Below the pieces are notes generated by a model that saw nothing but the letters and a program-made list of their open reading frames with translations, was not told where the DNA came from and searched no databases. Below, in pieces: positions 25,666 to 27,924 of a stretch of DNA of 35,716 nt. The position numbers and the translations under genes were made by a program. Source of the DNA: Nannocystineae bacterium (GTDB taxonomy: Bacteria; Myxococcota_A; Polyangia; Haliangiales; Haliangiaceae); NCBI GenBank assembly GCA_007133195.1, contig SLNH01000043.1, positions 1-35,716 of the forward strand, in the 5' to 3' direction. Position 1 is the stretch's first letter; each line of letters starts with the position of its first letter.

Positions 25666-27924
25666 CTACGCGGACGCCACCTGCGTCTGCATGCGATCAT
25701 AGCAAGCGTGGGCCGCCTCGATGAAGAGCTGCGCCTCCTCGATATGCCTGCGCGCCGCCTCTTGATCCACGCCGTCGCCCTTCTCCGGGGGCTCCTCGTG
25801 CGTCTTGAACAGGTAGCTCGCGAATTTCGCCCCCGCGTAGGGATCGTGAAACAGCTGGGTGTCGTGAAACCGCTCGCGGAACTCGCGGACGATGGCGTCG
25901 GCGTCGTCGCTGATGTCGGGGTTTTGCTGCTTGATGAGGCCTTTGGCGGCCGAGAGCATCGCCCCGTAGGCGAGCGTGGCGGCCTTGAGCGCGTCGCCTT
26001 GATCGAAGTGCAGCTGGGCCTCGAACACCTCGCGCTCGCTCGCCGCCAGCCCGAACTCGGCGAGCGTGACCACCTCCCCGGCGCACTCGCCCACGCCCAT
26101 ATCGCCGATCGTGTACTCCCGCGCGTCGCCCCAGTCGGCGAAAAACGAGGGATCCTCCTCGTAGGCCGGCACGTGGCGGAGGTCGTCGAGCGCCTTTTTG
26201 AGCTTCGCGCGGCCGCTGCGCTTGATGAAGTCCTGAAACCGCTCTCCCGGCTGCCGCTCGGCGATCCAGTACTCGGTCAAGCGATCGACCAAATCGGGGA
26301 TTCGCTTGGACGGAAACGCCCCGATCGCGAGGCCGTAGGAGGCGCCGTTTTGCGTCCACTGCCCGCCGACCACGAGCTGAAAGTGGGAGACCCGGCGGCC
26401 GCCGACGTTGCGGCTCACGCCGAGGAATCCGATATCGGAGACGTGGTGCTGGCCGCACGCGTTGAAGCACCCGCTGGCCTTGATGCGGAGCTTGCGGACG
26501 TCGTCGTCGAGCGACTCCGCCTTGGTCGACAGCCGGTTTTCGAGCTCGCCCGCGAGGCCGCGGGACGCGGAGATGCCGAGCTTGCAGGTGTCGGTGCCCG
26601 GGCACGCGGTGATGTCCTCGATGGTGCCTGCGCCGCCGTCGGCGAGGCCGATGCGCGCGAGCCCGTCGTGAAACGCCGGCAGCGACGCCTCCGGGATCCA
26701 CCGGTAGACGATGTTCTGCTCGACCGTGGTGCGGGCCGTGTCGCCGCAGTGCTCGCGCGCCAGATCGACGAGCGCGCGCGTCTGCGACGACGTGATGTCG
26801 CCGAGCGGCAAGCGCACGATGGCGGTCGCGTACCCCGGCTGCGCCTGCGGGATCACGTTGGTTCGGCGCCACCGCTCGAACCCCTCGCCGTAGTCACCCG
26901 GCTCGAGCGGCGCCGCGTCTTTCGTAGGAATCTCGGGCGTGACCGGATCGTCGGTGAGCGCCGTGGTCCACCGCTCGTCCTCCGGGAGAACCTCCCGCTC
27001 CGCCTCGACGAGACGGCGAAACTCGTCGATCCCGAGCTTGGCGACGAGGAACTTCAGTCGCGCCTTGTTTCGGTTTTTCTTCTCGCCGAGGCGGGCGAAC
27101 ACCCGGCACACCGCCTGCGACACGGGCAAAAGCTCCTCCTCGGGCAAAAACTCGTAAAGGAGCTGCGCCTTGTGCGGCACCGCGCCCAGGCCCCCGCCGA
27201 CGTAAAACGAAAACCCGCGCTTCGTCACGCCACCCTCCTGCCGCTCGGCCGCGATGCAGCCGATGTCGTGGATGGTGGTGAGCCCGCAGGCGTGGCCTTC
27301 GCACCCCGAGAACGCGATCTTGAACTTGCGCCCGAAATCCTGGGCGTCTTTGTGGCCAAGCAGGAAAAAGGTGAGCGCGTTCGCGTAGGGCGTGACGTCG
27401 AAGCTCGCGTCCCCGCACACCCCCGCGTAGGGGCAGGCGGTGACGTTTCGCACGCTGTTTCCGCACGCCTCGCGGGTCGTGATCCCGACGGCGGCGAGCC
27501 GCCGCATGAGATCGGGCGTGTCGTCGATGTTGACGAAGTGGAGCTGGATGTCCTGCCGTGTGGTCACGTGAAGGATCGCGTCGGAATACTCCTCGGCGAC
27601 CTCGGCGAGCACCTCGAGCTGGCGGTGGGACACCTTCCCCATCGGCAGCTTGATCCGCTCCATGCCCGGCGCATCCCACACGGTGCTCGGCCCCTTCGTG
27701 AGATCGCCGCACGGAAAGTTGAGCGCGCGCGTCTGCTCGCCGTCGTGGCGCTGACCGTTGTCGTAGCGCTGTCCGTAGGCGCCGCGCCTAAGGCGCGTCT
27801 CGGCGAAGACCTTTTCGTCGAGCTTCCCCTGCCGGCGAAGCTCCATCTCGTGTTCGAAGGCGTCGATCTCGTCGGCCCACGCGGGGGGCATCTCGCCGCC
27901 TAGGCGCTCCTTCCAGGTCCGCAT
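25666..27924 (-). CDS. Ferredoxin-type nitrite/sulfite reductase with HEPN-like C-terminal extension
   Basis: Siroheme enzyme for six-electron reduction of sulfite to sulfide or nitrite to ammonia. 752 residues. Two ferredoxin-like/siroheme repeats are seen: LPMGKVSHRQLEVLAEVAE and TTRQDIQLHFVNI in the first; RLPLGDITSSQTRALVDLA and VEQNIVYRWI in the second. The 4Fe-4S/siroheme cysteines are Cys441, Cys447 (ACPGTDTC) and Cys486, Cys490 (GCFNACGQ). Residues from about 590 form an additional helical domain not needed for the core: ADWGDAREYTIGDMGVGEC, then helices with ALKAATLAYGAMLSAAKGL and RRHIEEAQLFIEAAHACY, which resemble HEPN domains. Nitrite versus sulfite cannot be settled by eye. ATG 27924 has AGGAG 8 nt upstream (27933-27937). 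The partner gene follows at 21 bp. Confidence 0.93.
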   Translation of the reverse strand: MRTWKERLGGEMPPAWADEIDAFEHEMELRRQGKLDEKVFAETRLRRGAYGQRYDNGQRHDGEQTRALNFPCGDLTKGPSTVWDAPGMERIKLPMGKVSHRQLEVLAEVAEEYSDAILHVTTRQDIQLHFVNIDDTPDLMRRLAAVGITTREACGNSVRNVTACPYAGVCGDASFDVTPYANALTFFLLGHKDAQDFGRKFKIAFSGCEGHACGLTTIHDIGCIAAERQEGGVTKRGFSFYVGGGLGAVPHKAQLLYEFLPEEELLPVSQAVCRVFARLGEKKNRNKARLKFLVAKLGIDEFRRLVEAEREVLPEDERWTTALTDDPVTPEIPTKDAAPLEPGDYGEGFERWRRTNVIPQAQPGYATAIVRLPLGDITSSQTRALVDLAREHCGDTARTTVEQNIVYRWIPEASLPAFHDGLARIGLADGGAGTIEDITACPGTDTCKLGISASRGLAGELENRLSTKAESLDDDVRKLRIKASGCFNACGQHHVSDIGFLGVSRNVGGRRVSHFQLVVGGQWTQNGASYGLAIGAFPSKRIPDLVDRLTEYWIAERQPGERFQDFIKRSGRAKLKKALDDLRHVPAYEEDPSFFADWGDAREYTIGDMGVGECAGEVVTLAEFGLAASEREVFEAQLHFDQGDALKAATLAYGAMLSAAKGLIKQQNPDISDDADAIVREFRERFHDTQLFHDPYAGAKFASYLFKTHEEPPEKGDGVDQEAARRHIEEAQLFIEAAHACYDRMQTQVASA

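Follow-up and report, generated by a model that had tools for sequence, protein, structure and literature searches.

A HEPN-fold domain at the C-terminus of a siroheme reductase and the gene family that accompanies it

Introduction

What would a HEPN-like helical domain do at the end of an assimilatory siroheme reductase? The question is raised by one open reading frame in a 35,716-nucleotide stretch of DNA from a Nannocystineae bacterium (SLNH01000043.1; the window), in which an earlier note had recognized HEPN-like helices behind the siroheme core. Relatives of this protein are annotated merely as nitrite or nitrite/sulfite reductases. The literature searched, which covered few subscription journals, contained no relevant paper linking HEPN to sulfite reductase, which is weak evidence of novelty, and a survey of the HEPN superfamily makes no mention of sulfite, nitrite, siroheme, or any reductase (PMC3710099).

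The Reductase and Its Own C-Terminus

The open reading frame (25666–27924, minus strand) is intact, running from an ATG at 27924 to a stop codon at 25666–25668 and encoding 752 residues. Searched against Pfam as a single sequence, it contains two copies each of NIR_SIR (2e-59) and NIR_SIR_ferr (1.4e-33), with no model above the cut-off past residue ~600; HMG box and aminotransferase matches to the tail in single-sequence Pfam and PDB searches were at chance level and were discarded. The core (residues 1–611; 26092–27924, minus strand) comprises two ferredoxin-like half-domain plus NIR_SIR repeats, and its model superimposes on Mycobacterium tuberculosis NirA (1zj8) with a Z score of 39.0 over residues 18–579, against about 35 for plant nitrite reductases and 28–34 for sulfite reductases. 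The siroheme/[4Fe-4S] cysteines C441-x5-C447 ... C486-x3-C490 (26455–26604, minus strand), a known motif of this family, are invariant in all 78 sequences of the conservation set: 54 members with both HEPN and a partner gene, 12 with HEPN only, and 12 short forms. With its duplicated domains and cofactor cysteines, the protein, a single-copy enzyme in its own genome, is a siroheme nitrite/sulfite-type reductase, and it is followed by a genuine HEPN-fold domain.

The boundary between the two parts lies later than first proposed. The earlier note had the extension begin with a GDMGVGEC block, at the end of which lies the tail motif GECA (residues 612–615; 26080–26091, minus strand). HEPN-less relatives of about 575–600 residues terminate at this motif plus one further residue (S, T, or V), and the annotated Thermus enzyme ends RGECAV; GDMGVGEC is thus simply how reductases of this subfamily normally end. 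The span originally assigned to the extension (residues 585–752) does enclose a HEPN fold, but the fold itself occupies only residues ~618–746, directly after GECA. The short enzymes of Thermus and of further Myxococcota belong to the same subfamily (40–48% identical) and share the GECA end but stop there, having neither HEPN domain nor partner gene; the Thermus gene is found with cysH and siroheme genes. Cys614, within GECA, is present in 54/54 members with HEPN and partner, 12/12 with HEPN only, and 11/12 short members, the twelfth of which has no tail. This residue, just ahead of the HEPN domain, is old and common to HEPN-less enzymes; it may have a redox or a structural function. In the HEPN-less relatives it sits at the extreme C-terminus, a position that recalls a redox-active tail cysteine.

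The Tail Adopts a HEPN Fold

An alignment of 50 tail sequences served as input for an AlphaFold2 model of the extension. The model (pLDDT 95.5) displays five helices, consistent with the four- to five-helix HEPN bundle, and its nine top-ranking Foldseek hits in the PDB are all HEPN proteins or HEPN homologues, with TM scores of 0.72/0.79 for 2hsb. VIA Z scores were 16.4 for 2hsb and 13.8, 13.6, 13.4, and 13.3 for the next four, against 7–8 for unrelated helical bundles. A sequence profile of the tail retrieved the PDB HEPN chains 9xbd, 9xbc, and 2hsb at E values of 4e-8 to 3e-6 (best 4.4e-8). Pfam HEPN (PF05168) matches the tails of 28 of the 50 relatives (best 1.2e-7) and was below detection in the 752-residue sequence searched alone. 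Because the profile and structure routes agree, HEPN homology of residues 618–746 (25687–26073, minus strand) is shown in two independent ways, and the helices suspected in the earlier note are confirmed by structure prediction and fold search as well as by a profile search with the extension alone.

The domain evolves rapidly (its median distance is 0.78, that of the core 0.49), yet clade A, in which the reductase is accompanied by the partner gene, strongly conserves a clade-specific loop (DT-LF-DP-AG-KFA). The same fold and sequence profile characterize AF0298/UPF0332-type HEPN proteins (PF05168; 2hsb) and MNT-associated HEPN toxins, from which the present domain differs in being fused to a metabolic enzyme and in lacking R-x4-6-H. 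A further difference from the MNT-associated toxins is that the gene adjoining the reductase matches no Pfam nucleotidyltransferase family.

The HEPN Domain Is Predicted To Be Inactive

The HEPN superfamily consists mostly of RNases (PMC3710099), and the tail contains an R-x6-H string, REFRERFH (residues 680–687; 25864–25887, minus strand), on which the idea of an active RNase, or of a toxin or defence component riding on the reductase, was based. The string exists as described, but it is neither conserved nor located at the HEPN active site: R680 is retained in 9 and H687 in 7 of 54 close relatives. R-x4-6-H strings of any kind are rarer than chance, being found in 16 of 66 HEPN tails where shuffled sequences predict 31. 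When the family is aligned with a HEPN protein of known structure, the motif is missing from the canonical site in 63 of 66 members (three exceptions on loose counting). PADLOC gave no match, the neighboring family (46 members) has no significant Pfam or NCBIfam match and thus supplies no adjacent MNT gene of the HEPN-MNT toxin–antitoxin kind, and the gene surroundings are those of sulfur metabolism. Since the motif is unconserved and misplaced, the domain is predicted to have no catalytic activity; nucleotide targeting is not supported as a role, and an active RNase or toxin, already contradicted by these data, is extremely improbable.

Anantharaman et al. described HEPN domains that have shed the motif and taken on regulatory or substrate-binding duties (PMC3710099), the best precedent for the reductase tail. 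Inactive HEPN domains are likewise fused to nucleotidyltransferases (GlnD/GlnE, kanamycin nucleotidyltransferase; PMC3710099), where the fused domain is an MNT rather than a siroheme reductase.

An Obligate Neighbor of the HEPN-Tailed Reductase

A 190-residue protein, overlooked in the earlier note, is encoded 21 bp after the reductase stop (25072–25644, minus strand). In each of the 54 clade-A loci whose tail is complete, this partner follows the HEPN-tailed reductase, at a distance of ≤134 bp in 51 of 55 measured pairs and frequently with overlaps of 1–4 bases (−1/−4). Relative loci had been fetched with patterns from the partner protein and form a biased sample, of which surveys of 534 genomes from three phyla are independent. 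The partner was found in 36/237 Myxococcota, 13/149 Acidobacteriota, and 1/148 Bacteroidota genomes (50 in total); across the 534, this set coincides exactly with the genomes that encode a strong clade-A HEPN tail, and the gene always lies on the same contig, adjoining the reductase. Five Myxococcota genomes whose HEPN tail is more distant (E 1e-21 to 1e-26) do not have it, and neither do the ordinary Bacteroidota genomes with a HEPN-tailed reductase.

Searches of Pfam, NCBIfam, PDB sequences, PADLOC, and plasmid records found nothing that matches the partner family, nor does it match DUF934 or DUF2849, known small neighbors of other NADPH-independent reductases. Within the family D43, Y47, and H49 are invariant and R129-L130, in an NDRL block, nearly so. 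The divergence of the partner correlates with that of the core at 0.48 and with that of HEPN at 0.27 (partial correlations, the other held fixed); because it tracks the core better, the partner may bind the core. On the other side of the reductase, a divergently transcribed gene (28025–28552, plus strand) encodes a DUF2199 protein with no known link to it.

Distribution and History

The suspicion that similar long reductases exist elsewhere proved correct: 66 relatives (54 with HEPN and partner, 12 with HEPN only) in Myxococcota, Acidobacteriota, Planctomycetota, Gemmatimonadota, Latescibacterota, Fidelibacterota (Neomarinimicrobiota), Chloroflexota, and Bacteroidota carry the extension. In the core tree, members with HEPN and partner fall on one side of a branch (support 96/81) and HEPN-less members on another (100/99); L013 and L016 are long branches of unsure placement. 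Bacteroidota enzymes such as that of Aureibacter (WP_309942569.1, annotated only as nitrite reductase) show the same domain order at about 34% identity, without the partner and with cobA/cysG directly downstream. Their tails are homologous to those of clade A, as judged from independently built profiles (hhalign E 9.6e-6, HMM E 1.9e-7). A single gain or a single loss of HEPN would be enough to explain this pattern, with the partner either acquired later or lost in Bacteroidota.

Sulfite Is the Most Likely Substrate

The pair K200-F-K202 (27319–27327, minus strand) bears on the substrate, since K-x-K versus K-x-N at this position tracks sulfite versus nitrite preference. Neither lysine varies in any of the 78 sequences, and PDB alignments give K-x-K for M. 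tuberculosis NirA versus K-x-N for plant nitrite reductases. In the organism's own genome one siroheme reductase is detectable, and an APS reductase is encoded elsewhere. Operons of relatives include cysH, cysG/cobA, cysD, and cysteine synthase: the reductase gene occurs with phosphoadenylyl-sulfate reductase and siroheme synthase in L051, with cobA, cysH, and cysD in L048, and after cysteine synthase in L060, and Bacteroidota relatives have cobA/cysG downstream. A PF01507 protein is present in all 36 Myxococcota genomes with the reductase–partner unit versus 141 of 201 others (Fisher p 1.4e-5, a value that ignores kinship).

Given the K-x-K pair, the sole siroheme reductase found, the APS reductase, and the cysH/cysG/cysD clusters, the cell's assimilatory siroheme sulfite reductase is the most likely identity of the enzyme. 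An assimilatory nitrite reductase could draw on the best-scoring family models, which are common to both activities, on the structural closeness of the plant enzymes, and on the naming of one annotated Bacteroidota relative, but it appears very unlikely given the invariant K-x-K, the cysH/cysD/cysteine synthase neighbors, and a genome with an APS reductase in which no second siroheme reductase was found. The sulfite reductase is probably ferredoxin-fed; a ferredoxin gene downstream of the reductase in one relative is a hint only. The ferredoxin-dependent siroheme sulfite reductase of M. tuberculosis (NirA/SirA, 1zj8) shares the two-repeat fold (28% identity over 486 residues), the K-x-K pair, and the siroheme/[4Fe-4S] cysteines but lacks HEPN.

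The organism's APS/PAPS reductase (L092:7893-8957, minus strand, contig C204) has an extra N-terminal region of ~100 residues, with a C-x2-C close to the beginning (GEPCRKCAQAED). This region resembles a thioredoxin/glutaredoxin-like or ArsC-like domain.

A Second Cysteine Set in the N-Terminal Half

The K-x-K pair lies within a second cysteine set, C164-x5-C170 ... C208-x4-C213 (residues 164–213; 27286–27435, minus strand), which mirrors the siroheme/[4Fe-4S] cofactor cysteines of the C-terminal half. Each of its four cysteines is present in 54/54 members with HEPN and partner; the full set is found in none of the 12 HEPN-only members and in few short forms, and it is not present in the HEPN-tailed Bacteroidota enzymes or in 1zj8 as aligned. 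It thus tracks the partner more closely than HEPN. These cysteines could plausibly form a second [4Fe-4S] or other metal site. A second siroheme was considered and rejected: the mirrored lysines in the C-half are unconserved (K/R here, varied elsewhere), so a plain Fe–S or other metal site is likelier. The set also bears on the origin of two-repeat reductases from a symmetric ancestor.

Possible Roles of the HEPN Domain and Its Partner

Taken as a whole, we somewhat favor an assimilatory, probably ferredoxin-fed siroheme sulfite reductase that carries an inactive HEPN docking or regulatory module and works with the 190-residue partner. The HEPN domain, added after the normal C-terminus of the reductase, would act as a helical docking or regulatory module and not as a nuclease; in clade A, either it or the reductase body would hold the partner, which might supply electrons, protect or mature cofactors, or tune activity. 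A regulatory or docking role is possible and is favored because the neighboring gene is obligate. HEPN cannot, however, serve solely to bind the partner, given that Bacteroidota have the domain without it.

That same retention in Bacteroidota, the closer tracking of the core by the partner, and the fast evolution of HEPN would also fit a structural or oligomerization element fixed by history and devoid of regulation, with the partner acting on the core alone, e.g., as a maturation factor or electron carrier. We regard this alternative as credible but the less probable one: HEPN is kept in every clade-A member for which the 3′ end is available, and the conserved loop suggests more than a passive role.

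A bolder version of the docking or regulatory reading is a dedicated two-component sulfite reductase, in which the HEPN-tailed enzyme, with its second N-half metal or Fe–S site, works only with the obligate partner docked through the dead HEPN domain. We offer this tentatively and consider it rather doubtful; if true, sulfate assimilation in many phyla would have a system for electron input, sulfide handling, or regulation that evolved separately. The fixed gene pair of the clade suggests a previously undescribed, two-gene variant of a basic nutrient pathway. A toxin-type fold has here been domesticated onto a central enzyme of metabolism, one that would provide sulfide for cysteine. In several phyla, sulfite reduction is linked one-to-one with a conserved, unnamed protein family, and the fused HEPN domain together with this family makes the feeding and control of sulfite reductase in these bacteria directly testable.
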